From Rhodopseudomonas sp. AAP120 (lineage in GTDB: Bacteria > Pseudomonadota > Alphaproteobacteria > Rhizobiales > Xanthobacteraceae): a stretch of 36,485 nt of DNA. The notes under the pieces are model-generated. The model did no database searches. It was not told where the DNA came from and worked only from the letters and a program-made list of their open reading frames with translations. The DNA lies in NCBI RefSeq assembly GCF_001295845.1, contig NZ_LJIC01000105.1:1-36485 (forward strand). The letters run 5' to 3'. Of the stretch, positions 3,631 through 15,450 are shown piece after piece. Position numbers and translations under genes: made by a program. The stretch's first letter is position 1, and every line of letters begins with the position of its first letter.

Positions 3631-5031
3631 TCATCCGATCGGCGGCCGCCGCGTGTGCCAATCGGTGATCGACTGATAGGCGTGGCCCGCGCGCGCCAGC
3701 ACGTGTTCGGACAGATGCGGCCCAACCAGCTGGAAGCTCAGCGGCATCGCGTCGTCCGACATCCCCATCGGCATCGTAATCGTCGGGCTGCCGCTGAAGT
3801 CGAACACCGCGGTGAAGCGCAGGATGCTCAGCAAAATGTTGGGATCGGCGCCGTATTCGCTCATCTTGGTCAGGGTCGGGATCGGCACCGGCATGGTCGG
3901 CACCAGCAAAAGGTCGATATCCTCGAACAGCGCGGCCAGCGCCCCGGAGAATTTCAGCCGCTCATGATGGATTGCGGCGATCTCGACACCGGTCGTGGCG
4001 TGGCCCTGCTCGATCAGTTGCGCCAGATCCGGGCCGTACTCCTGCTTGCGCGCCTGATAGGTCGCCAGATGCGCCTCGGCGGTTTCGACCGAGCACATCG
4101 GGATCCATTGGCTCACCAGCTTCTCGTAAACCGGGAACTTCACCTCGCGGACGTGGGCGCCGAGCGACGCCAACGCCCGCTCCGCTTCGAGCAGCGCCTT
4201 GACCACTTGCGGATCGATACCGTCCTGCGTGTAGCTGCGGTCGACGCCGATGCGCAAGCCGCGCACGCCGCCGCCGATCTGCGCCAGATAGTTCGGCACC
4301 GGCGCCTGCAGCGCCGTCGGGTCGTTTAAGTCAGCGCCGGCGATGACGCCGAGCATCGCCGCCGCGTCGGCCGCGCTGCGGCACATCGGTCCGACATGGT
4401 CGAGCGAATCCGCCAGCGGAAACACGCCGTAGCGGCTGACGCGGCCCCAGGTCGGCTTGATGCCCGTGAGGCCGCACGTGGCGGAGGGAAAGCGGATCGA
4501 GCCGCCGGTGTCGCTGCCGATCGCGCCGTAGCACAGGCCAGCGGAGGTCGCGACGCCGGAGCCGCTTGACGACGAGCCGACCCAATGATCGGCGCTCCAC
4601 GGATTGAGCGGCGCGGCGTCGTCCGGATGATGGCTGGTGTAGGCGCCCTCGGTCATCTTCAGCTTGCCGATCGAAATCGCGCCGCCGAGTTCGAGCCGGT
4701 CGACCACGGTTGCATTGTAGGACGGCACGAACTTGGCGTGGATCATCGTCCCGCCACCGGTCGGCGCAAACGTCGTGTAGCAGAGGTCCTTCAACCCTAT
4801 CGGCACGCCGTGTAGCGGTCCGCGATTGATGCCCCTGGCGATCTCACCATCCGCCTGCTCGGCCTGCCGCAGCGCGCGTTCGCCGAGCACAGTCATGTAG
4901 GCGTTGAAGCGCTTGTCCAACTGCCCGATGCGATCGAGCGTCGCCTGCGTAACCTCGGACGGCTTCAGCTCCTTGCGGCGATAGAGATCGGAGAGCTCGG
5001 TGATCGATTTGTAGTGCAGATCCGCGGTCAT
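3631..5031 (-). CDS. Amidase, amidase-signature family (distal copy)
   Basis: A 466-residue amidase-signature enzyme (PF01425) hydrolysing a carboxamide to acid and ammonia, presumably cytoplasmic. The Ser-cisSer-Lys triad is visible: Lys-81 in GLKDLC, cis-Ser about 155 in GSSSSGSG and nucleophile Ser-178 in GSDTGGSIR. The glycine-serine loop is SSSSGSG rather than the usual GGSSGGS, as in its paralogue at 11903-13303, which has exactly the same length. The two enzymes bracket the formamidase and amide transporter genes. This one is last on the strand, after a 228-bp gap that contains a palindromic repeat, so it may be transcribed partly on its own. It is not GatA, since gatB and gatC are absent. 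The amide substrate is unknown. Confidence 0.9.
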   Translation of the reverse strand: MTADLHYKSITELSDLYRRKELKPSEVTQATLDRIGQLDKRFNAYMTVLGERALRQAEQADGEIARGINRGPLHGVPIGLKDLCYTTFAPTGGGTMIHAKFVPSYNATVVDRLELGGAISIGKLKMTEGAYTSHHPDDAAPLNPWSADHWVGSSSSGSGVATSAGLCYGAIGSDTGGSIRFPSATCGLTGIKPTWGRVSRYGVFPLADSLDHVGPMCRSAADAAAMLGVIAGADLNDPTALQAPVPNYLAQIGGGVRGLRIGVDRSYTQDGIDPQVVKALLEAERALASLGAHVREVKFPVYEKLVSQWIPMCSVETAEAHLATYQARKQEYGPDLAQLIEQGHATTGVEIAAIHHERLKFSGALAALFEDIDLLLVPTMPVPIPTLTKMSEYGADPNILLSILRFTAVFDFSGSPTITMPMGMSDDAMPLSFQLVGPHLSEHVLARAGHAYQSITDWHTRRPPIG

Positions 5032-5259: not shown

Positions 5260-6021
5260 TTAGAACTGCACGCCCTTGGTCAGTGCGCCGTCCACGACCA
5301 GATTGGTGCCGGTGATAAAGCTCGCCGCCTTGCTGCCGAGGAACACCACCGCGTTGGCCATCTCCTGCGGGGTGCCCATGCGGCCGGTCGGGTTCAGCGC
5401 GAGCGCGGCGTTGTACAGCTCGGGGTTGCCGTCCTTGATCTGATTCCAGACGCCGCCCTCGAAATACGTATTGCCCGGCGACACCGAGTTGGCGCGAATG
5501 TTCTTGGCGGCGAGCTGATAGGCGAGGCCTTGGGTGTAGTGGATGATCGCGGCCTTGAAGGTGCCGTAGGGCCCGGCGGCGAAATCGACTTCGCGGCCCG
5601 AGACGCTGGAGATGGTGACGATCGCCCCGGCGCCGCTCTTTTCCAGATACGGCATCGCCGCATCGACCAGCCGCACCGTGCCCATCATGTCGGTGGCGAA
5701 TTCCTTCTCCCAGCTCTCTTCGTCCTGCCCAATCGCCAGCGCGCTGACATTGGCGACGATCACGTCGATGCCGCCGAGCTTGGCGGCCATGTCGGCAACC
5801 CAGGCCTTCAGCGCCGGCCCGTTGGCGACATCGACCGCGCCGCCAAACGCCGCGACGCCCTTCGCCTTCAGCGCCGTGATCGTCGCGTCGACCTCGGCAA
5901 CGTTGCGGGCGCAGATGCCGACGTCGGCGCCCTCAGCCGCGAACGTCTCGGCGACCGCACGGCCGATGCCTTTGGTGCCGCCGGTGACCAGCACCTTGGC
6001 GCCCTTCAAACCCAGATCCAT
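5260..6021 (-). CDS. SDR-family NAD(P)-dependent oxidoreductase
   Basis: A 253-residue short-chain dehydrogenase/reductase of classical length. The cofactor motif TGGTKGIG is at residues 13-20. The catalytic Ser (about 138/139 in TISSVSG), Tyr-152 and Lys-156 (YGTFK, the Y-x3-K motif) are intact. The usual NNAG is replaced by NVSA. The start at ATG 6021 (MDLGLKG) is chosen over an in-frame ATG at 6060 because AGGGGAG lies 6 bases upstream and the family starts just before the Rossmann strand. It lies 69 bp after the transporter ATPase gene on the same strand. Its role in amide use is not evident. It may act on an alcohol, aldehyde or hydroxy acid released from an amide, which is inference only. 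Confidence 0.88.
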   Translation of the reverse strand: MDLGLKGAKVLVTGGTKGIGRAVAETFAAEGADVGICARNVAEVDATITALKAKGVAAFGGAVDVANGPALKAWVADMAAKLGGIDVIVANVSALAIGQDEESWEKEFATDMMGTVRLVDAAMPYLEKSGAGAIVTISSVSGREVDFAAGPYGTFKAAIIHYTQGLAYQLAAKNIRANSVSPGNTYFEGGVWNQIKDGNPELYNAALALNPTGRMGTPQEMANAVVFLGSKAASFITGTNLVVDGALTKGVQF

Positions 6022-6090
6022 CTCATGCTCCCCTGCTGTCGCGCGCGCCGCCGCACGCATTGATACTAAGCTTTGTGGCGCCCCTGCTGC

Positions 6091-6816
6091 TCACAGCAGC
6101 AGCTGCGCCCGCACCTTGTCTTCGTTGACCTCGTCGCCGACCAGCGAATGGGTGATCCGGCCCTTTTCCATGATGTAGCAGCGCTGCGCGATCGCCAGGA
6201 TGGTGTCGAGATTCTGCTCGACGAACACGATGGTGGTGCCGAGCTCGTCCCTGAACGATTTCAGCGCCTCGCAGATATGTTGCACGATCGACGGCTGGAT
6301 GCCCTCCGACGGCTCGTCGAGGATCATCAACGCCGGATTGCCGATCAGTGCCCGCCCGATCGCCAGCTGCTGCTGCTCGCCGCCCGACATCGTGCCGGCC
6401 GCCTGCTTGCGCCGCTCCTTCAGCCGCGGGAAATACTCGTAGACCAGCTCGGGCAGCTTCTTGCCCTTCGGTCCGCCGATCAGCTCGCCGACCTGCAGAT
6501 TTTCCTCGACTGTCATTTGCGGAAACACGTCGCGGCCCTGCGGGATGTAGCCGAAACCGGCGCGCGCCCGCGCGTCCGCTTGCAGCGGCGTGACGTCGCG
6601 ATCCATGAAGCTGATCGAACCGCGCCAGCTATCCAGCAGGCCGATGATGCAGCGCATCAGCGTCGATTTGCCGACGCCGTTGCGGCCGATCACGCCGACG
6701 ATCTCGCCGCGATACACCGTCATGTCGACGCCCTGCAGGATCGGCGTGGCGCCGTAGCCGGCCCACAGGCCGCTGACGTCGAGGATGCGATCGGCCGGCG
6801 CGCGCTCAGTGGGCAT
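6091..6816 (-). CDS. urtE: Urea/short-chain amide ABC transporter ATP-binding protein (UrtE type)
   Basis: A 241-residue ABC ATPase. Walker A is GRNGVGKST (the GRNGVGK form is typical of UrtE/FmdF rather than LivF), the signature is MSGGEQQQLAIGRAL, Walker B is ALMILDEPSEG, and the H-loop region reads VFVEQNLD. It energises import together with the UrtD-type ATPase and the two permeases. The preferred ATG at 6816 overlaps the end of urtD. A TTG 12 bases further upstream (6828) is also in frame. Fmd and Urt importers are hard to separate by sequence. The neighbouring formamidase and AmiC favour short-chain amides or urea. Confidence 0.9.
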   Translation of the reverse strand: MPTERAPADRILDVSGLWAGYGATPILQGVDMTVYRGEIVGVIGRNGVGKSTLMRCIIGLLDSWRGSISFMDRDVTPLQADARARAGFGYIPQGRDVFPQMTVEENLQVGELIGGPKGKKLPELVYEYFPRLKERRKQAAGTMSGGEQQQLAIGRALIGNPALMILDEPSEGIQPSIVQHICEALKSFRDELGTTIVFVEQNLDTILAIAQRCYIMEKGRITHSLVGDEVNEDKVRAQLLL

Positions 6817-7525
6817 GGGTTTTCCCAAGATAGATTTCGGCGACCTGCTCGTCGTTGAGAATCTCGTCGAGACTGCCGCGCGCGAAGATCTTGCCGAGGT
6901 GCAGCACGGTGACGCGCTGCGCGATCTGGCGGACGAACGCCATGTCGTGCTCGACCACCAGCACCGTCATGCCCTCGGCGTTGAACGACTTGATCAGTTC
7001 GCCGGTCTTGTAGGTTTCTTCCGGGGACATGCCGGCGGTCGGCTCGTCCAGCAACAACAGCTGCGGCCGCAGCGCAAGCGCCATGCCGATCTCCAGCCAT
7101 TGCTGCTGGCCGTGCGACAACGCGCCCGCCATCTTTCCGGCGTCGGTGGCGAGACCGAGCAATTCAAGCAAGCGCTGCTCTTCGAGCGCGCGCTCGGCGC
7201 CGGTGACGCGGTCTTGCAGCGCGATCTGAATGTTCTGCTGCACCGGCAGTTCCTTGAACACGCTCGGCGCCTGCATCTTGATGCTCATGCCGCGCTGAAC
7301 GCGCGCGAATGGCCGCTCGGCGGTGACGTCGACCGAATCGAACAGGATGCTGCCATTGGTCGGCGGAAACAACCCGACGATCAGCTTGAACAGCGTGCTC
7401 TTGCCTGCGCCGTTCGGGCCGATCAGGCAATGCACTTCGCCGGCCTTCACGGTGAGATCGACATCGGACACGGCGGTGAGGCCGCCGAACCGCTTGGTGA
7501 CGCCTTTGACTTCGACGAGGGACAT
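6806..7525 (-). CDS. urtD: Urea/short-chain amide ABC transporter ATP-binding protein (UrtD type)
   Basis: A 239-residue ABC ATPase with Walker [10 protein letters not shown], signature [15 protein letters not shown] and Walker [12 protein letters not shown]. The WLEIGM sequence after the signature is characteristic of the UrtD/FmdE branch of branched-chain-type transporters. ATG at 7525 begins 2 bases after the urtC stop, and GAGG-type purines lie within the end of urtC. The open frame continues upstream to 7858, but that part is out-of-frame reading of urtC and is excluded. It pairs with UrtE to power the importer at the inner membrane. Confidence 0.92.
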
Positions 7526-7527
7526 GA

Positions 7528-8604
7528 TCAGGCCTCGTCCGTCTTGAGTTTGGACTGTGCTGGCAAATCTGTGACCGCGGTTCGTTTGCCGCGCCCGCTC
7601 AACCGATCCGCCACGAATTTGCCGATTCCGAGCACGAAGCCCTGCGGTGCCGCCATCACGGTGGCGAGCAGCAGCGCCCCCATCAGCACCAGCGCGGCCT
7701 GCTGGCTGTAAACTGTGATGGTCTGGAAGCCGAATAGCAGCAGGAAGGAGCCGACCAGCGTCGCCGTGAGATCGCTGCGCCCGGAGAACGCCACCCACAC
7801 GATCGGCATCGCCGCCGCAGGCAGGCCGATGCTCGACGGCGTGATGAACTGCCCCCATGAGGTGTAGAGCGCGCCCGACAGCCCGGCGAGACCGCTGCCG
7901 AGCACGAAGGTCAACAACTGATATTTACGGACATCGTAGCCGAGCATTTCGGCGCGCTGCGGATTCTCGCGGGTAGCGACGATGACGTTGCCGATGCCGG
8001 AATTCACCAGCATGCGCAGCGCCAGATAGACGATCACGATCAGCGCCACCATCACGTAGTAAAGCGCCGAGCCTTCGATATAGAGGTCGCCGATCGCCAG
8101 CGGATCCATGCCCTTCATGCCGTTGAAGCCGTTGAGCCGCGCGTCGCCGATATGCCACTCCGGCCCGGCCGTCTGGCCGAGGAAGAATGCCAGCACCAGC
8201 GTCGCCGACAGCGTGACGATGCCGAAGAAGATGCCGTTGATGCCGCCCCAGATCATGAAATAACCGAGGATTCCGGCGGCGATCATCGCCACCACGACCG
8301 ACAGCAGCAGCGCCGCGATCGTGGTGGTGCCGCCGCCCATGTTGATCGCCAGCACGCCGTACGCATAGCCGGCGATGCCGAAGAACAGCGTCTGGCCGAA
8401 CGACAGCATGCCGCCATAGCCCCACATCAGGCACAGCCCGAGCGCCATGAAGATCCAGATCAGGAAGTAGGAGAAGTTGCCGACATCGTAGGAGTCGGCG
8501 AACAGCGGATAGATCAGCGCGCCGGCCAGGATGGCGATGAAGCAGCCCCAGAACATCGGACCGCGCCCCAGTGTCTGAGGACCTTCGAGCAGTCTGAACA
8601 TCAT
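7528..8604 (-). CDS. urtC: Urea/short-chain amide ABC transporter permease (UrtC type)
   Basis: A LivM/UrtC-type inner-membrane permease of 358 residues with about ten hydrophobic segments, first at about 17-35. It contains the family stretch [20 protein letters not shown] and the cytoplasmic coupling segment [20 protein letters not shown] that contacts the ATPase. The start is placed at ATG 8604, with GGAGAG a few bases upstream. A second ATG follows directly at 8601 and an upstream ATG at 8625 lies inside urtB. Translation is probably coupled, with an 11-base gap after the urtB stop. The tail ends in a charged cytoplasmic segment of about 30 residues. Confidence 0.92.
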
Positions 8605-8614
8605 CTCTCTCCGC

Positions 8615-9481
8615 TCAACGTCCACGCCGCGCCAGCACGCTGGATAATCCTTCCGGCAGCACCCGGATGATCAGGATGACCGCCACCAGCATGCCGATCT
8701 GGCCGATGATCTGGCCGTAGCTCGCATTCAGCGTCATCCGGATCGCCGCCAGCAGCAGCGCCGCCGGCGCGGTGCCGAGCAGCACGTTGGCGCCACCGAT
8801 CACCACGGTGACGAAGCTTTCGACCACGAAGGTCGCGCCCATCGTCGGAATCAGCGTCATGGTCGGCGCATACAGCGCGCCGCACAGGCCCGCGAGCCCG
8901 GCGCCGATGCCGAAGCTGATCGCGTAGATGCGCCCGGTGCGCGCGCCGAGCGCCCGCGCCATCGCAGCGTTCTGCATCGTGGCCCGCGCGATCACGCCGA
9001 ACCGGGTCTTCATGAATACGATATAGAGCCCCACCAGCACCGCGACAGCGGCGCCGAACAGCACCAAGCGATAAGTCGAGAACGTGTAGGCACCAATCGC
9101 GAAGCTGCCTTCGGGCGTGCCGATGCCGCGGATCGACGAGCCGACAATCAGCAGCATCGACTGGGTGACGATCAGGCTCAGCCCCCAGGTCGCGAGCAGC
9201 GAGTCCAGCGGACGCTTATAGAAGCGACGGACGACGAAATATTCGACGACCACGCCGATCAGCCCGGCGGTGATCGCGGCGGCGATCTGGGCGATCGGCA
9301 GCGGCACACCAAGATTGACGAGGCCGACCGTGACGTAGGCGCCGCACATGATGAACTCGCCATGCGCCATGTTGATCACGCCCATCATGCCGAACACGAT
9401 GGCGAGGCCGGCGGCCGAGAGGATCAGAAAGGCGAAGACGTCGGCGAACTGATAGAAGACCGAGAATACTTCAGCCGACAT
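8615..9481 (-). CDS. urtB: Urea/short-chain amide ABC transporter permease (UrtB type)
   Basis: A 288-residue LivH/UrtB-type permease with about eight membrane segments. The N-terminal signature GLAIVFGMMGVINMAHGEFIMCGAY is recognisable in parts (for example GVINMAHGEF), and the coupling loop NAAMARALGARTGRIYAISF is typical of this family. ATG at 9481 is preceded by AGGAG 6 bases upstream. It forms the transmembrane pore with UrtC. A hairpin in the 134-bp gap upstream separates it from the binding-protein gene. Confidence 0.93.
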   Translation of the reverse strand: MSAEVFSVFYQFADVFAFLILSAAGLAIVFGMMGVINMAHGEFIMCGAYVTVGLVNLGVPLPIAQIAAAITAGLIGVVVEYFVVRRFYKRPLDSLLATWGLSLIVTQSMLLIVGSSIRGIGTPEGSFAIGAYTFSTYRLVLFGAAVAVLVGLYIVFMKTRFGVIARATMQNAAMARALGARTGRIYAISFGIGAGLAGLCGALYAPTMTLIPTMGATFVVESFVTVVIGGANVLLGTAPAALLLAAIRMTLNASYGQIIGQIGMLVAVILIIRVLPEGLSSVLARRGR

Positions 9482-9615: not shown

Positions 9616-10854
9616 TCACGACTTCTTGGGCAGATGGCTCGGCGTGTACTGATCCTTGTCGTTCTTCTTGGTGAGATCGCAGCCGATCTCGCCGAGCCAA
9701 TACGGCTGGATCGTGCCGTAGTCCTTCTCGACCTTGACCTCGTGCTTCGGGCCGACCGAGATCAGCCGCATGCGGTGCGAGGTGTGCTGGCTTTTTGGAT
9801 CGATGCAGACTTTGCCTTCAGGCGCATCGATGCAGGCGTCGCCGGTGGCGATGACCTTGCGCAGATCTTCGAGCTTGGTCGACTTCGCCTTCTCCACCAG
9901 CGTTTTGTACATGTAAAGCGCGTTGTAAGCGTTGTAGCCCATGTCGTTGATGTACATCTCGTCCGGGAACTTGGCCTTCCAGCGCTTCTTGAACTCGTTG
10001 GCTTCCGGCGTATCGATTTCCTCGAACCAATTGGCGGTGGCGTGCATGTTGTTGAGCGCCGGCGGCTTGAAGCGCTTGTGCTCGAAGCCAAGCATCACCT
10101 TGATGGACGAGCCCATCGGCAGATTGAGATTGGCTGCTGCGGCCTGTTCGAAGAACGAATCCTGCGCGGCGCCGACATTGATGGTCAGCAACCAGTCCGG
10201 CTTGGCCTTCTGGATGTTCTGGATAGTCTGGGCGAATTGCGAGACGCCGAGCGGGATGAACTCCTCGCCAACGACTTCGCCGCCGAGATCCTTCATGATC
10301 TTGCGGTTCCACTCGGCCGAGATCTGGCCGAAATTGTAGTCGGCGGCGATGACGTAGACCTTCTTGCCGAACTTCTCGACCATCCAGGGGATCAGCGTCG
10401 AGAACTGCTGCTCGGGCACCGCGCCCATGCTGATCATGCTGGCGTCGCAGACGCCGCCTTCATACTGGTTGGTGTAGAAATACGGCGTGGTGGTGCGGTC
10501 GACGATCGGCCGCACGGCTTCGCGCGACGCCGAGGTGATGCCGCCGATCAGCACGTCGACCTTGTCGCGGTTGAGCAGGCGGCGCGCGAATTCCTGATAA
10601 CGCGCGTTGTCGCCTTGCGGATCGAGATGGATCAGCTCGATCTGCCGGCCCATGATGCCGCCGCTCTTGTTGATCTCCTCGACCGCGAGCTGCGAGCCGT
10701 GCAGCTTTGGCATCCCCATGAAGGCGAGGTCGCCGGAGATGTCTTCGAGCAGGCCGACCTTGAGCGGCGGATCGGCCGCATGGGCGGCGAACGGCGCAGC
10801 GGCGCCGAGCGCGAGGCCGAGCAAGGCCGTGCGGAGCAGATATCTCTTGTGCAT
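9616..10854 (-). CDS. urtA: Urea/short-chain amide ABC transporter periplasmic binding protein (UrtA/FmdD type)
   Basis: A 412-residue type I periplasmic binding protein. A Sec signal peptide covers residues 1-26 (hydrophobic core LLGLALGAAAPFA, cleavage after AHA). The mature start LKVGLLEDISGDLAFMG and the segment TTPYFYTNQYEGGVCD resemble UrtA, FmdD and AmiC proteins that bind urea or small amides. It captures ligand and presents it to the UrtBC-type permeases. The start ATG has GGGGA about 9 bases upstream. It lies 33 bp after the formamidase gene in the same direction. Substrate choice between urea, formamide and acetamide is open. The formamidase next door favours amides. Confidence 0.88.
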   Translation of the reverse strand: MHKRYLLRTALLGLALGAAAPFAAHAADPPLKVGLLEDISGDLAFMGMPKLHGSQLAVEEINKSGGIMGRQIELIHLDPQGDNARYQEFARRLLNRDKVDVLIGGITSASREAVRPIVDRTTTPYFYTNQYEGGVCDASMISMGAVPEQQFSTLIPWMVEKFGKKVYVIAADYNFGQISAEWNRKIMKDLGGEVVGEEFIPLGVSQFAQTIQNIQKAKPDWLLTINVGAAQDSFFEQAAAANLNLPMGSSIKVMLGFEHKRFKPPALNNMHATANWFEEIDTPEANEFKKRWKAKFPDEMYINDMGYNAYNALYMYKTLVEKAKSTKLEDLRKVIATGDACIDAPEGKVCIDPKSQHTSHRMRLISVGPKHEVKVEKDYGTIQPYWLGEIGCDLTKKNDKDQYTPSHLPKKS

Positions 10855-10887: not shown

Positions 10888-11886
10888 TTAGGTCTTCAGG
10901 TAGTTCTTCAGGATCGACGCGCCCATCGTGTATTTGGGGTCGACCATGTTGCCGAGGCGGATGCGGCCGGCCTGGCTGAGCAGCATGTAGGCGTCGATCT
11001 CGTCGAAGCCGTAGTCGGACGCCATCCAGCGCGTCAGCTCGCGATAGGCGATACGTGCCGCGTCTTCGAGCGGACGGGCGCTACCGATCGTCATGATGAA
11101 GTCCTTGGTCTCCAGCCGCGGCCAGGCGAAGCTCCAGTTTTTGATTAGATCGACCTGCAGCGTCACAGTCGCGCGCTGTTCGAGCGCGACGCCCGACAAT
11201 TCGCCGTCACCTTGCGTGGCGTGGCAGTCGCCGACATAGAGCATGCCGCCGTCGGTATGCACCGGGAAGTAGATCACCGCGCCGGGCGCGACGTCGGGCA
11301 GATCCATGTTGCCGCCGTGATAGTCCGGCTGCAGCGACGAGATCGCCTCGATCTCCGGCGACACGCCGATGGTGCCGATGAACGGTTCGTAGGGCAGCGT
11401 GATCTTGTCGCTCCACTTCACGCCGCTACGGTCGACGTGGAGTTTCTTGACGCGCTCGGGTAGCGGCGGGTTGAGCAGCGCCGTCGCCGCCGTGCCGACC
11501 AGACCGCCGAACTCCGGCATGATGCAGGTGGTGCCGGCCGGCTGCTCGCCGCGGGTCTCGACGTCGCGGATGTAGATGGCGAGGCAATCCCCCTTCTTGG
11601 CGCCGTTCACGGCGATCGGGCCGCATTGCGGGTTGAGATAGGGGAAGTTCAGCTTCGCAGTCGGGCTGTGGGTTTCGCTGGTGATGACGCCGCCGAACGC
11701 GTCCTCAGTCTCGACCACGACGACCGAGCCTGGCTCGATCGACAGCGTCGGCTTCGCATAGGGCCCATAGACGTAATGAAACGGTCCCTGCTGCTCGATC
11801 GTCAAGCTGTGGGTCGCGCCGGTCGCGCCCTTGGCGACGCCGCGCGCCGCCATGATCGAACTCTTCAGCCACTCTTCGGATGACAT
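10888..11886 (-). CDS. fmdA: Acetamidase/formamidase family protein
   Basis: A 332-residue member of the FmdA/AmdA family (PF03069), zinc-dependent enzymes that hydrolyse formamide or acetamide to ammonia and the acid. Recognisable segments are SIEPGSVVVVETEDAFGG, the GPIAVNGAKKGDCLAIYI turn and HTDGGMLYVGDCHATQGDGE, whose Asp, His and Cys residues are conserved in the family. ATG at 11886 is preceded by AGGAG 7 bases upstream. Upstream in-frame codons to 12021 lie inside the preceding amidase gene and are excluded. It is shorter than Methylophilus FmdA (about 400 residues) but normal for the subfamily. The gap to the upstream amidase is 16 bp, so they are co-transcribed. Confidence 0.9.
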   Translation of the reverse strand: MSSEEWLKSSIMAARGVAKGATGATHSLTIEQQGPFHYVYGPYAKPTLSIEPGSVVVVETEDAFGGVITSETHSPTAKLNFPYLNPQCGPIAVNGAKKGDCLAIYIRDVETRGEQPAGTTCIMPEFGGLVGTAATALLNPPLPERVKKLHVDRSGVKWSDKITLPYEPFIGTIGVSPEIEAISSLQPDYHGGNMDLPDVAPGAVIYFPVHTDGGMLYVGDCHATQGDGELSGVALEQRATVTLQVDLIKNWSFAWPRLETKDFIMTIGSARPLEDAARIAYRELTRWMASDYGFDEIDAYMLLSQAGRIRLGNMVDPKYTMGASILKNYLKT

Positions 11887-11902
11887 GTGAACTCCTCGAA
11901 TC

Positions 11903-13303
11903 TCAGAGAGACGGATGGCGCTTGTGCCAGTCGGTGGCGCGCTGGAAGGCGTCGCCGGCGGCGACAAGACGCCCCTCGTCAAAGTGACGGCCGACGAACT
12001 GGAACGCCACCGGACCTCCATTGGGCGCGAAGCCGCCGGGCAGCGTGATGGTCGGACTGCCGGTCATGTCGAATGGACAGGTGAAGCGCAGCAGGCCACC
12101 GATCAGCGAAGGGTCCTCGCCAAGCGACGCCATCTTGGCGAGCGTCGGCGCCGCATAGGCCTGCGCCGGCACCGCGATCAGATCGACCGTCTCGAACAGC
12201 GCCCGCAGCGCGCCGCGGAACGCTTCCCGCCGCAGCACGATCTTCTGATAGTCCGTGCCGGATTGCTGCAGGCCGAGATCGAGAAGGCCGGCGAGGCCGG
12301 GACCGTATTCGTCTTTGCGTGCCGGATAGGTCGCTTCGTGCGCCACCGCGGCCTCGATGCCGCACAGCGGGAACCAGTCATCGGTCACCGCCTGCGCGTC
12401 CGGGAAAGTGATGTCCTTTATGGTGGCGCCGAGATCCTTGGCCACGCGTAGCGCATCGTCGAGCACCTTGACGGCGGCTTCGTCGGTGCCCTGCGAGGTC
12501 CAGCGCCGATCGACGCCGATCACCACGCCCTTCAAATCACCGGAAAGATTGGCCGTGTAGTTCGGCACCGGCAGTGGCACCGCCGTGGTGTCGTGCGGAT
12601 CGGCGCCGGCGATGACACCGAGCATGGCGCCGCAATCGACCGCGCTGCGCGCCATCGGGCCGATGTGATCGAGCGTGGCGGCGAGTTCGTAGGCGCCGTA
12701 GCGGCTGACACGCCCCCAGGTCGGCTTCAGCCCGGTGATGCCGTTCGCTGCCGATGGAAACCGGATGGAGCCGCCGGTGTCGGTGCCGAGCGAGCCGAAG
12801 CACAGCCCGGCCGCGGTCGCCGAGCCGGATCCACTCGACGATGCGCCCGACCACAGTTGCTTGTCCCAGGGATTCTTAGGCGGATCGATCTTGGGATGAT
12901 GATCGGCGTAGGCGCCTTCGGTCTGCTGCAGCTTGCCGAGAATGATCGCGCCGGCGTCCTTGAGGCGAACCACCACGGTGGCGTCTTCGCCCGGCATGAA
13001 GTCGCGATGGATCGTCATGCCGTGCGCGGCCGGCATGCCCTTGACCCAGCACAGATCCTTCACGGCGATCGGCACGCCGTGCAGCGGCCCTTTCACCTTG
13101 CCGGCGGCGATTTCCTTCTCGGCCAGCGCAGCGTCGGCCAACGCTGATTCAGGCGAGACGAACGCATAGCTCTTCAACGCGCCGTCAAGCTTCTCGATGC
13201 GTTGCAGCATCACCTTGGTGACTTCGACCGGAGACAGCTTCCTCGCCTGAATGTCCTGGCCGATCTCGACGAGTCCGCGATAGTGAAGATCTGTCGTCCC
13301 CAA
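11903..13303 (-). CDS. Amidase, amidase-signature family (first gene of the amide operon)
   Basis: A 466-residue amidase-signature enzyme, paralogous to the one at 3631-5031. Triad: Lys-82 (AVKDLC), cis-Ser about 156 (GASSSGSG) and Ser-179 (GTDTGGSIR). The start is set at TTG 13303. It gives MGTTDLHYRGL, which aligns with MTADLHYKSI of the paralogue and yields identical length, and GGGAG lies 8 bases upstream. In-frame ATG codons at 13339 and 13417 are less likely. The latter directly abuts the leader terminator, and the former has no good ribosome site. It is the promoter-proximal gene of the amide operon, preceded by an untranslated leader of about 250 bases with an intrinsic terminator. 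It is unrelated to the nitrilase-type AmiE that AmiC/AmiR control in Pseudomonas. Confidence 0.88.
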   Translation of the reverse strand: MGTTDLHYRGLVEIGQDIQARKLSPVEVTKVMLQRIEKLDGALKSYAFVSPESALADAALAEKEIAAGKVKGPLHGVPIAVKDLCWVKGMPAAHGMTIHRDFMPGEDATVVVRLKDAGAIILGKLQQTEGAYADHHPKIDPPKNPWDKQLWSGASSSGSGSATAAGLCFGSLGTDTGGSIRFPSAANGITGLKPTWGRVSRYGAYELAATLDHIGPMARSAVDCGAMLGVIAGADPHDTTAVPLPVPNYTANLSGDLKGVVIGVDRRWTSQGTDEAAVKVLDDALRVAKDLGATIKDITFPDAQAVTDDWFPLCGIEAAVAHEATYPARKDEYGPGLAGLLDLGLQQSGTDYQKIVLRREAFRGALRALFETVDLIAVPAQAYAAPTLAKMASLGEDPSLIGGLLRFTCPFDMTGSPTITLPGGFAPNGGPVAFQFVGRHFDEGRLVAAGDAFQRATDWHKRHPSL

Positions 13304-13406: not shown

Positions 13407-13445
13407 AAAAAAGCCACCCGCTCCTCGAAACGAGGCGCGAATGGC
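13407..13445 (-). terminator. Leader intrinsic terminator of the amide operon (probable AmiR target)
   Basis: On the minus strand, arms GCCATTCGCGCCTCG and CGAGGAGCGGGTGGC pair over 15 positions (one G/A mismatch, two G-U pairs) around a TTT loop and are followed at once by six T residues. It lies about 110 bases after the predicted start and 100 bases before the TTG start of the first amidase, so it would stop transcription before any gene. An alternative small stem upstream (GGC 13452-13454 / GCC 13443-13445, loop ATTCGA) uses the start of the left arm and could compete with the terminator. Antitermination by AmiR is inferred from gene context. Confidence 0.82.
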
Positions 13446-13544
13446 TCGAATGCCGCGGCTATGGTCTGTCGCGCAGGTGCTTAGTCGAACGCTAGTTTCA
13501 TGCTTGAATTCGGACGTCGTCGGCCAAATTCAAACTCAATTCGA

Positions 13545-13558
13545 TTGTCACCTGACAA
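13545..13558. promoter_or_regulatory. Palindrome at the predicted transcription start of the amide operon
   Basis: TTGTCA-CC-TGACAA is a perfect 6-bp inverted repeat with a 2-base spacer, covering the expected start site (about 13556). It could be an operator for an additional repressor or, in RNA, a small 5'-end hairpin. No candidate DNA-binding protein is encoded nearby, as AmiR-type proteins bind RNA. Confidence 0.5.
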
Positions 13559-13562
13559 CGAA

Positions 13563-13592
13563 AGTCTAGGTTGGGGAGGTTCGCGATGTCAA
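13563..13592 (-). promoter_or_regulatory. Sigma-70-type promoter of the amide operon
   Basis: On the minus strand a perfect -35 TTGACA (13592-13587) is followed by an 18-bp spacer and a -10 TAGACT (13568-13563, 4 of 6 matches). Predicted start is near 13556. A strong constitutive -35 fits a system regulated after initiation by antitermination. Confidence 0.6.
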
Positions 13593-13708
13593 CGCGTGAG
13601 CATGCACAAATCCTGCACGAGTGCTGCGCAGCAAATCAGCAGCGCCGCTCTTGATCAGTTCGTGCACTTGATGGTCTCATGCACGCCTTGCGCGAGTGAC
13701 GATGCTTC

Positions 13709-14866
13709 ATGTCGAAACCTTCGATTCCGGTCGGGATAATATCGTCGACGTCCGGTCCGTATCAGGCGATGGGCCGCGAAATCCTGAAATCGGCGCTGAT
13801 GGCTGTCGACGAGGTCAATAGCAGTTCCGAATTCGATTTCAGCCTCCAAGCGCATGTTCGCGATCCAGGCGGCGTGCTCGGCGACTATCACACGGCCTGC
13901 GACGACCTGATCCGCAATGTCGGCGTCGATCACATCGTCGGCTGCTACACCTCCGCAGCGCGCAAGCAGGTGCTGCCGATCGTCGAACGCACCGAACGGC
14001 TGCTGTGGTATCCGGCTCGCTATGAAGGCTTCGAGTGCTCCGACAACGTGATGTATGTCGGCGCTTCGCCGAACCACAATGTCGTGCCGCTGGTGCGCTA
14101 TGTGCTCGACAATCTGTCGCGGCAGCTGTTCTGCGTCGGCTCCAATTACATCTGGACGTGGGAAACCAATCGCGTCACCCGCGAATTGGTGACCGCCTCC
14201 GACGGCCGCATCGTCGCGGAGCGGCTGCTCGAACTCGGCGAGAGCCGCGTCGAGCACATCGTCGACGAGATCGTCCGCAAGCGGCCACCGATCGTGTTCA
14301 ACACCCTGGTCGGCAGTTCGAGCTACGACTTCATCCGCGCCTTTCACGCGGCGACCAATGGCCTGAGCATTCCGATGCTGAGCTGCAGCCTGTGCGAGCC
14401 GGAGCTGAAGATCGTCGGCGCGGCGGGCGCCGGCTGCATCACCTCGTCGGCCTATTTCGAAAGTATCCGTCTGCCGGAAAATCGCGCCTTCGTGGCGCGG
14501 TGGAAGGCGCGCTACGGCGATGACAGCAGTCCCTCGGTCGACGGACAGTCGGCCTATGTGGCAGTGTTTCTGCTGGCGCGGGCGATCCAGCGCGCCGGCA
14601 CAGCGAATGTCGCCGAGGTGCGACGTGCCGCTGCCGGGCATCGTTACGACTCGCCGCAAGGTCCGGTGTGGATCGACGGCGATAACAACCACTGCGTCCT
14701 TACGCCACGGCTGGCGGTGTCCAACGCCAGCGGGCAGTTCGATATCTTCTGGGAAGCGGACGCTCCCGTGAAGCCCGACCCTTATTTGTCGCAACTCGAT
14801 GTCGCGGTCCGGCCGTCGAAGGACGGACGGGCTCCCCATGCGCCTCACCTGAGGATCGTCAAATGA
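13709..14866 (+). CDS. amiC: AmiC-like amide-sensing negative regulator
   Basis: 385 residues, the same length as Pseudomonas aeruginosa AmiC, which it resembles along its length. Shared segments include RDPGG, DLIRNVGVDHIVGCY, QVLPIVERTERLLWYP, YEGFECSDNVMY and the C-terminal DSPQGPVWID. AmiC is a periplasmic-binding-protein fold used in the cytoplasm. It sequesters AmiR and releases it when a short amide binds. Consistent with that, there is no signal peptide, unlike the transporter binding proteins at 9616 and 17813. The gene overlaps amiR by 4 bases (ATGA), which would couple their translation and support complex formation. The ribosome-binding site is weak (GAGTGA). It is transcribed away from the amide operon that it probably controls. 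Confidence 0.9.
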   Translation: MSKPSIPVGIISSTSGPYQAMGREILKSALMAVDEVNSSSEFDFSLQAHVRDPGGVLGDYHTACDDLIRNVGVDHIVGCYTSAARKQVLPIVERTERLLWYPARYEGFECSDNVMYVGASPNHNVVPLVRYVLDNLSRQLFCVGSNYIWTWETNRVTRELVTASDGRIVAERLLELGESRVEHIVDEIVRKRPPIVFNTLVGSSSYDFIRAFHAATNGLSIPMLSCSLCEPELKIVGAAGAGCITSSAYFESIRLPENRAFVARWKARYGDDSSPSVDGQSAYVAVFLLARAIQRAGTANVAEVRRAAAGHRYDSPQGPVWIDGDNNHCVLTPRLAVSNASGQFDIFWEADAPVKPDPYLSQLDVAVRPSKDGRAPHAPHLRIVK

Positions 14867-15450
14867 GCAAGCCGTCGTCGTTTTCACTGCGCGGTCGCAA
14901 GGCCCTGCTCGCCATCAAGGACGAGCGCGACGCTTCGATCGTCCGGCGTCAGTTCGATCGCCTCGGCATCGAGATGGTCAGCTGGGCCCCAGGCGAAACG
15001 CCGGCTTGCGCTGCCGACATCGTGCTGATCGACGATGATCATCTGCCGATCGCCGGTGTGGAGAATTGCCCGCTTCCGGAAGGCTGCGCCGTCATCGTCC
15101 TGCTCGGCACCGAAACGCCGAGCCGGCTGAAGCTGGTGCTCGATCTCGACCCGGCGTCATTCCTGGTCAAGCCACTGCGATCCGCCGGCATCTATGCGGC
15201 CGTGGTGATGGCGTTCGAACGCGTCACGCGGACCAATGAATTGAAGCAACAGCTCAGCAAGATGGATGCGCGGATGCGGGCGCGGCGCGTGGTCCTTGCC
15301 GCCCTGGTGCAGATCATGCACGCGCAGGGCCTGCCCGAGCCGGCCGCCTTCGCGCTGCTGCGGCGGATGGCGATGGAGCAGCGCAAGACCATCGAGCAAC
15401 TCGCCGCCGAACTCGTCGCGCAAGATCCGCTCGCCCGCGCCACCGGCTAG
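14863..15450 (+). CDS. amiR: AmiR-like antitermination regulator with ANTAR domain
   Basis: 195 residues (Pseudomonas AmiR has 196). It has an N-terminal pseudo-receiver domain (about 10-125), a coiled-coil linker (about 125-140) and a C-terminal ANTAR RNA-binding domain with the family pattern (about 140-190: ALVQIMHAQGLPEPAAFALL, RRMAMEQRKTIEQLAAEL). It should bind a leader RNA and prevent termination once freed from AmiC. The likely target is the leader terminator at 13407-13445 on the opposite strand. It starts inside the amiC stop (ATGA) and ends 4 bp before the convergent xth gene. Confidence 0.9.
   Translation: MSKPSSFSLRGRKALLAIKDERDASIVRRQFDRLGIEMVSWAPGETPACAADIVLIDDDHLPIAGVENCPLPEGCAVIVLLGTETPSRLKLVLDLDPASFLVKPLRSAGIYAAVVMAFERVTRTNELKQQLSKMDARMRARRVVLAALVQIMHAQGLPEPAAFALLRRMAMEQRKTIEQLAAELVAQDPLARATG

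Follow-up and report, generated by a model that had tools for sequence, protein, structure and literature searches.

An amide operon with divergent amiC-amiR-like genes

The window (the whole stretch of 36,485 nucleotides that was analyzed, from a genome of 6.16 Mb) carries an amide operon on the minus strand and, next to it, a divergent pair of regulatory genes (Table 1). The open frame of the first operon gene, an amidase, extends up to 13417; we took the TTG at 13303 as its likeliest start because relatives show TTG, GTG or ATG at the same point (by inspection). This codon lies 104 nt past the U tract of the leader terminator, close to the roughly 100 bases given in the original prediction. 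The FmdA/AmdA-like gene probably starts near 11900. Genes for a Urt-type transporter follow, and a short-chain dehydrogenase gene probably belongs to the operon as well; a second amidase gene is possibly also part of it, despite a gap of ~230 nt.

Sequence matches bore out the earlier naming of the divergent genes as AmiC and AmiR: a gene for an AmiC-fold sensor (215.7 bits to 1PEA) adjoins a gene whose product carries both AmiR_N and ANTAR domains, the combination by which AmiC-AmiR systems are recognized. The two open frames overlap (14863-14866). The sensor resembles urea-binding proteins as well, and the enzymes encoded downstream suggest amides as its ligand. Named Rhodopseudomonas strains gave 92-93% matches to the AmiR of the window, from which the genome probably belongs to this genus. 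We infer that the product of the adjacent amiR gene is the cognate regulator of the amide-operon leader.

Table 1. Positions of the genes and leader features in the window, with one hairpin from another locus of the same genome
Feature	Position	Strand	Evidence or remark
-35 element TTGACA	13587..13592	minus	kept in 50/50 distinct leaders
-10 element TAGACT	13563..13568	minus	18-nt spacer from -35 in 50/50 distinct leaders
5' hairpin UUGUC-AGGU-GACAA	13545..13558	minus	read from sequence
Long-range helix, UCGAA (13544-13540) with UUCGA (13489-13485), enclosing the mid-leader hairpin	13485..13544	minus	covariation alignment
Mid-leader hairpin, apical sequence CCGACGACGU	13504..13533	minus	covariation
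Conserved stretch GCGACAGACCAUAGCCGC directly 5' of P2	13455..13472	minus	leader alignment
P2 antiterminator hairpin GGC[AUUCGA]GCC	13443..13454	minus	leader comparison and folds
Intrinsic terminator stem-loop	13412..13446	minus	fold and scan
U6 tract	13407..13412	minus	read from sequence
Second inverted repeat in read-through RNA, 11-bp stem and tetraloop	13361..13386	minus	inspection of relatives
Amidase (Amidase signature family), operon gene 1	11903..13303	minus	putative start TTG 13303
FmdA/AmdA-like acetamidase/formamidase	10888..12021 (open frame)	minus	PF03069, 121.9 bits
Urt-type substrate-binding protein	9616..10854	minus	TIGR03669, 633 bits, over cut-off
UrtB-like permease	8615..9481	minus	below NCBIfam cut-off
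UrtC-like permease	7528..8625	minus	below NCBIfam cut-off
UrtD-like ATPase	6806..7858 (open frame; match from residue 114)	minus	below NCBIfam cut-off
UrtE-like ATPase	6091..6828	minus	below NCBIfam cut-off
Short-chain dehydrogenase	5260..6060	minus	sequence match
Second amidase	3631..5031	minus	sequence match
amiC-like ligand sensor	13709..14866	plus	215.7 bits to 1PEA
amiR-like ANTAR antiterminator	14863..15450	plus	ANTAR PF03861, 39.0 bits (cut-off 27.3); AmiR_N, 32.8 bits
Canonical P2-type hairpin GACAGC[AACGCU]GCUGUC	L126:1813-1761 (own genome, C74)	minus	overlaps a strong terminator with an eight-U run

The promoter, the terminator and the overlapping P2 hairpin

The amide operon is preceded by a strong sigma-70-like promoter, as had been predicted: TTGACA-18-TAGACT scored 10/12 in a consensus scan, the highest value among the three promoter-like sites that it picked out over 10 kb (1.6 expected from shuffles). 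Among 50 distinct leaders of the family, described below, the -10 hexamer reads TAGAAT in 25, TAGACT in 22, TACAAT in two and TACACT in one. Approximately 32 nt upstream of the -35 element lies a block, TTTGCTGCGCA (13625-13635, minus strand), which is conserved in 45/50 leaders and is possibly an operator or a piece of the amiC promoter.

The leader (13558-13405) folds with a z-score of -3.6, and none of 200 shuffled sequences folded as low. Near the site of the 5' hairpin, many other leaders contain ACAGG...CCUGU in a different register. The conserved stretch GCGACAGACCAUAGCCGC reads GCGAUAGAUCAUAGCCGC in many relatives, and comparison of the 50 leaders revealed no conserved hairpin within it. 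Past the terminator, the second inverted repeat starts ~20-25 nt after the U tract; inspection placed it at the matching position in 28/33 loci, with compensatory changes, and a looser script criterion (any 8-bp stem) found one there in 31/33. Attenuation by a leader peptide was rejected: downstream of the promoter only one short frame opens with ATG (MKLAFD, by eye), and inspection showed that this codon is missing from the Bradyrhizobium leaders.

The predicted terminator, with a 15-bp stem and a six-T tail, was found at 13446-13412, with its U residues running to 13407. Folded alone it reaches -26.4 kcal/mol (z -4.9; 0/200 shuffles as low), and its stem comprises 15 Watson-Crick and GU pairs around one mismatch, or 16 with a terminal G-U. 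The competing stem that was suspected to use the left arm of the terminator also exists. It is the P2 hairpin GGC[AUUCGA]GCC, which shares the nucleotides AGCC (13446-13443) with the 5' arm of the terminator. Among the hexaloop hairpins of at least 3 pairs that can form in all 50 leaders, only P2 overlaps this arm; the other one consists of the terminator 3' arm and the U tract. We folded the growing RNA of the window leader at every second base, and the outcome fitted a terminator/antiterminator pair: P2 was present in the minimum-energy structure at 12/15 lengths preceding the complete terminator 3' arm, vs 0/4 lengths once this arm was complete. Forcing P2 into the finished leader costs 5.4 kcal/mol, while P2 alone is worth -2.8 kcal/mol; P2 would therefore need a holder such as a bound protein. 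A P2 hairpin of at least 3 bp with a hexaloop, exclusive with the terminator as in ANTAR targets, can be drawn in 56/56 family leaders, with the competition between folds computed for the window leader.

Conservation of the leader in Rhodopseudomonas and Bradyrhizobium

A search with AmiR gave matches at E 1e-10 or better in 114/391 genomes of the family, 37 of them with at least 44% identity. Another genome collection yielded 32 loci, of which 31 carry a Rhodopseudomonas or Bradyrhizobium label. From 66 loci, 60 with an alignable amiC start were retained, and these gave 50 distinct leaders; L001-L003 (other ANTAR loci), L004 (a duplicate from the own genome) and L021 and L058 (amiC start unmatched) were dropped. 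In 397 genomes of the order, the AmiR of the window was matched at E 1e-25 or better in only three, all from the family of the window and one of them the own genome. The exceptional label belongs to L043, a contig assigned to Bryobacterales (Acidobacteriota); the locus groups with Bradyrhizobium in the AmiR tree, and the label is probably a binning error.

P2 is present in all 50 distinct leaders, 49 of which also have 5-7 consecutive T; together with the promoter, conserved to the same extent, these features are not a product of chance. Six further family members (L067-L072, AmiR 44-50% identical), which served as the outgroup, all keep the promoter, the mid-leader hairpin, P2 and the terminator. 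The genes that follow are conserved as well: in the other collection the amidase is present in 32/32 loci, and FmdA and the transporter binding protein come after it in 30/32, the two exceptions being L043, where the record ends, and L058, where the fetched stretch ends. A search of the own genome for the family leader signature gave a single exact hit; with up to two mismatches there were 242 places vs 100 in a reversed control, and a relaxed P2-plus-tail pattern gave four places (one of them the window site) vs five in the control.

The locus L058 (2380-5149, Bradyrhizobium barranii subsp. apii 1S5) has transposase-like open frames, recognized by eye, between the leader and amiC and also inside amiC. 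P2 and the terminator are present in its amide-operon leader.

The strong terminator fold would also suit a terminator that merely ends a constitutive short RNA, or that imposes a constant, unregulated reduction on expression of the operon. We regard this as extremely improbable, since the conserved P2, the stretch preceding it and the mid-leader hairpin exceed what a terminator needs. An attenuator under the control of AmiR is the reading that we follow below.

A covarying hairpin in the middle of the leader

Covariation, proposed along with the original prediction as a check on the leader, was present and was concentrated in one helix. Three helices were scored, and 32 double-change cells were counted vs 12.2 in shuffles, with 0/500 shuffles as high (the shuffles ignore relatedness); 30 of the 32 fall in the mid-leader hairpin, which lies ~50 nt upstream of P2. 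Its two-sided changes affect 8/14 pairs and 83.0% of its cells are paired, one inner position being unpaired in 40/47 sequences. The apex reads CCGAYGACGU in 54/56 family leaders, and the two apical pairs are kept in all 56, in L068 and L072 by way of G-C to G-U and G-C to A-U replacements. The long-range helix that encloses this hairpin is paired in 98.6% of cells; it is almost invariant, with zero two-sided changes. P2 and 8/14 terminator pairs show zero variation within the 50 leaders, so covariation is silent on both.

If the C-G pair is taken as closing the apical loop, the loop reads GAYGAC (AAUGCU in L072), with G at position 4. This G makes the mid-leader hairpin a candidate distal docking site for AmiR.

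The same hairpin could be taken as the mark of a riboswitch, or of a target of some other regulator, with AmiC-AmiR as mere neighbours: it covaries most strongly, its apex is nearly invariant, and it is not recognizable as an ANTAR P1. However, none of 4227 Rfam families matched the window at the gathering score, and the best match in the leader region, and the sole one at E up to 5, was a microRNA model at E 1.2. The overlap of P2 with the terminator in every family leader, and the retention of both elements at distant AmiC-AmiR loci within quite different leaders (see below), likewise speak against this explanation, which we judge highly improbable.

The P2 loop departs from the textbook ANTAR site

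P2 loops begin with the expected A1 in 50/50 leaders, or 56/56 with the outgroup. The G of the loop is at position 5 in 49/50 leaders, including the AUUCGA loop of the window. G4, which defines the textbook site and is important in EutV and NasR, was found in only two leaders (L030 and L031, the latter having both G4 and G5) and is absent from the window. In the sister lineage L067-L072, A1 and G4 occur together in 6/6 leaders. The leaders with G5 clustered in the AmiR tree, whose bootstrap was unsettled and whose distant branches were long, and which we used solely to contrast the clade of the window with L067-L072.

The second textbook element is a P1 hexaloop hairpin with A1 and G4 a few nucleotides before P2, and no conserved one was found in the 50 leaders compared. 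One could argue that AmiR does use a textbook dual hexaloop whose P1 was overlooked, for example GCG[AUAGAU]CAU just before P2, where the AUAGAU stretch has A1 in 49/50 and G4 in 50/50 leaders. We rejected this candidate as a conserved hairpin: the bases on either side of the stretch cannot pair into a 3-bp stem, the six outgroup leaders do not retain it, and P2 itself would still be short of G4. An overlooked P1 thus appears unlikely to us. As far as sequence comparison goes, the leader is not a member of the textbook dual-hexaloop class, the two defining features examined both being absent.

The method detects textbook-type P2 hairpins where they exist, because it found one at L126 in the own genome. 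This locus encodes a receiver-ANTAR protein and two binding proteins of the NMT1 type; a 6-bp A1/G4 hairpin lies downstream of the ANTAR gene and ~75 nt upstream of the second NMT1-type gene, and is probably part of a NasT-type attenuator. L126 was one of three other ANTAR loci of the own genome that were scanned for A1/G4 hexaloops at terminators; the one at an L125 terminator was taken for chance.

Lys149 of EutV contacts G4 according to the available text of PMC8934654. The equivalent residue is Leu in the AmiR of the window, and all family sequences covering the position have Val, Leu or Ile there (numbering matched by alignment spacing). Loss of this lysine alone cannot explain the loop: the AmiR proteins of L096, L099-L104 and L106, with Val, Thr or Ile, are accompanied by G4 loops, and the sister clade L067-L072, which has G4, is without the lysine as well.

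Related leaders beyond the family

Comparable leaders occur in other Proteobacteria, either next to amiC or following amiR. GGC[N6]GCC was present in 41/50 terminators near AmiC-AmiR genes vs 3/60 other terminators of the same 45 loci, an enrichment inflated by kinship, as 33 of the 45 loci are the window and 32 close relatives. One of the three background cases is the L058 leader of the amide operon, where other open frames intervene before amiC.

The leader beside amiC was examined in a further 36 loci that contain an AmiC-like gene. Sixteen (L084, L086-L092, L108-L114 and L117) have a terminator-overlapping GGC[N6]GCC, with a loop beginning with A in 14. Twenty have no such terminator beside amiC, and some of them have one after amiR. 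These include L093, with swapped P2 arms (GCC[AAAUGA]GGC), L085 and L116, with a terminator but no P2, and 17 further distant loci that show no such leader. At L122/L123 the arms are GGU..ACC. In L093 and L122/L123, then, the 5' arm of P2 changes along with the terminator arm. P2 and terminator are kept at distant AmiC-AmiR loci inside otherwise very different leaders.

Plasmids of Skermanella, Paracoccus and two Rhizobium carry an operon for an ABC transporter and an acetamidase/formamidase that begins with amiC-amiR, and a P2-type leader lies directly upstream of amiC. The window appears to hold this module with the amiC-amiR pair inverted. When 19 loci were scanned whole, three of them from the own genome, GGC[N6]GCC terminators were found in 12; in ten of these they sit after amiR and have G4 loops, e.g. 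UAUGUA or UGUGCA.

Several loci deserve mention in their own right. In two AmiC-AmiR-like loci of the own genome, L124 (2184-2224) and L125 (2179-2223), amiR is closely followed by a terminator that resembles an attenuator and contains GGC[UGUGUA]GCC or GGC[GAUGCA]GCC. In the leader of L089 (G796), two hexaloop hairpins, GCGG[AAUCGU]CCGC and then GGC[GAGCGA]GCC, are 3 nt apart and both have G5. For an AmiR-like ANTAR gene on a Bradyrhizobium japonicum plasmid (L083:5001-5588), the incomplete gene table lists no amidase operon within 5 kb; the 1.2 kb before this gene, empty in the table, could hold amiC.

Proposed mechanism

We conclude that the leader is very probably an AmiR-controlled transcription attenuator of the operon for the amidase, FmdA and the Urt-type transporter, and we have high confidence that it works like an ANTAR attenuator. 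Sequences and fold predictions show how the leader is built, that it is conserved, that P2 and the terminator exclude one another and that the leader is associated with AmiC-AmiR genes. RNA polymerase would start at the promoter (13592-13563) and by default stop at the terminator (13446-13407). Binding of an amide- or urea-like ligand by AmiC would release AmiR, which may then bind the weak P2 as it emerges from the polymerase and hold the AGCC that the terminator needs. With P2 held, transcription would continue into the amidase, FmdA and transporter genes. The amiC-amiR genes are divergent from the operon, so AmiR would act in trans. The mid-leader hairpin (13533-13504) may be the first docking site for AmiR, in place of the canonical P1.

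A more specific and tentative suggestion, to which we give somewhat less than an even chance, is that the ANTAR code has changed in this AmiR lineage, which would recognize a single A1/G5 P2 together with the distal CCGAYGACGU hairpin as a docking site instead of P1. The sister lineage, with A1/G4 and a docking hairpin of the same kind, would then be intermediate between this code and the textbook one.

ANTAR proteins are widespread, but predicting their targets is difficult: the known site is very small and is specified by A1 and G4 in two adjacent loops. The leaders of this family keep the antiterminator geometry while the G moves and the adjacent P1 is absent, and a close sister clade retains A1/G4; the G5 family and the G4 clade can therefore be set against each other, as a matched set of variants provided by nature, to test which features ANTAR domains read. 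Beyond the original prediction, sequence comparison points to leaders in cis before amiC-amiR in other Alphaproteobacteria, a non-canonical loop register and the lack of a canonical P1.

Comparison with known systems

The published design of ANTAR targets, as given in the available parts of PMC3369931, PMC8934654 and PMC3369936, has a P2 held by the protein, and the P2 of the window matches it. Like the window, the ami operon of Pseudomonas aeruginosa combines an AmiC-type sensor, an AmiR-type ANTAR protein and amide catabolism, and its leader has a terminator with an overlapping antiterminator hairpin. In P. aeruginosa, however, amiE and the regulators form one operon, amiECBRS, and the amiE loops have A1 and G4 (both as described in the accessible text of PMC3369936), whereas in the window amiC-amiR are divergent, the P2 loop has A1 and G5 and a close P1 is missing. 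The target differs too: it comprises Amidase-signature and FmdA-type enzymes and a Urt-type transporter.

In the EutV-controlled eut leaders of Enterococcus, as in the window, P2 overlaps the 5' arm of the terminator and A1 is kept. The published 13-nt eut element AGCAANGRRGCUY can be read as a stem AGC..GCU with a loop AANGRR; by our own reading, the outgroup loops AUGGAA, AUAGAA and AGUGAA fit ANNGRR. Unlike in EutV/eut, the loop of the window has G5 and the residue at the Lys149 position is hydrophobic. EutV is, moreover, a phospho-receiver protein, whereas the AmiR of the window matches the AmiR_N type.

The NasS-NasT attenuators, for example that of Bradyrhizobium nos, resemble the window in having a sensor and an ANTAR protein, leaders reached in trans and hosts among related bacteria (PMC6759348, in the part available), but they respond to nitrate and control nitrogen genes. 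The probable NasT-type leader at L126 of the own genome, with a 6-bp P2 and the canonical A1/G4 loop AACGCU, also differs from the P2 of the window. In the titles and abstract openings of papers that searches on ANTAR antitermination and on amide and transporter leaders brought up, we found no description of this leader. The same kind of attenuator stands in cis in some Alphaproteobacteria and before the divergent operon in Rhodopseudomonas and Bradyrhizobium, and the leader of the window looks like a conserved RNA switch of a familiar type, arranged in a new way and fitted with an unusual recognition loop.
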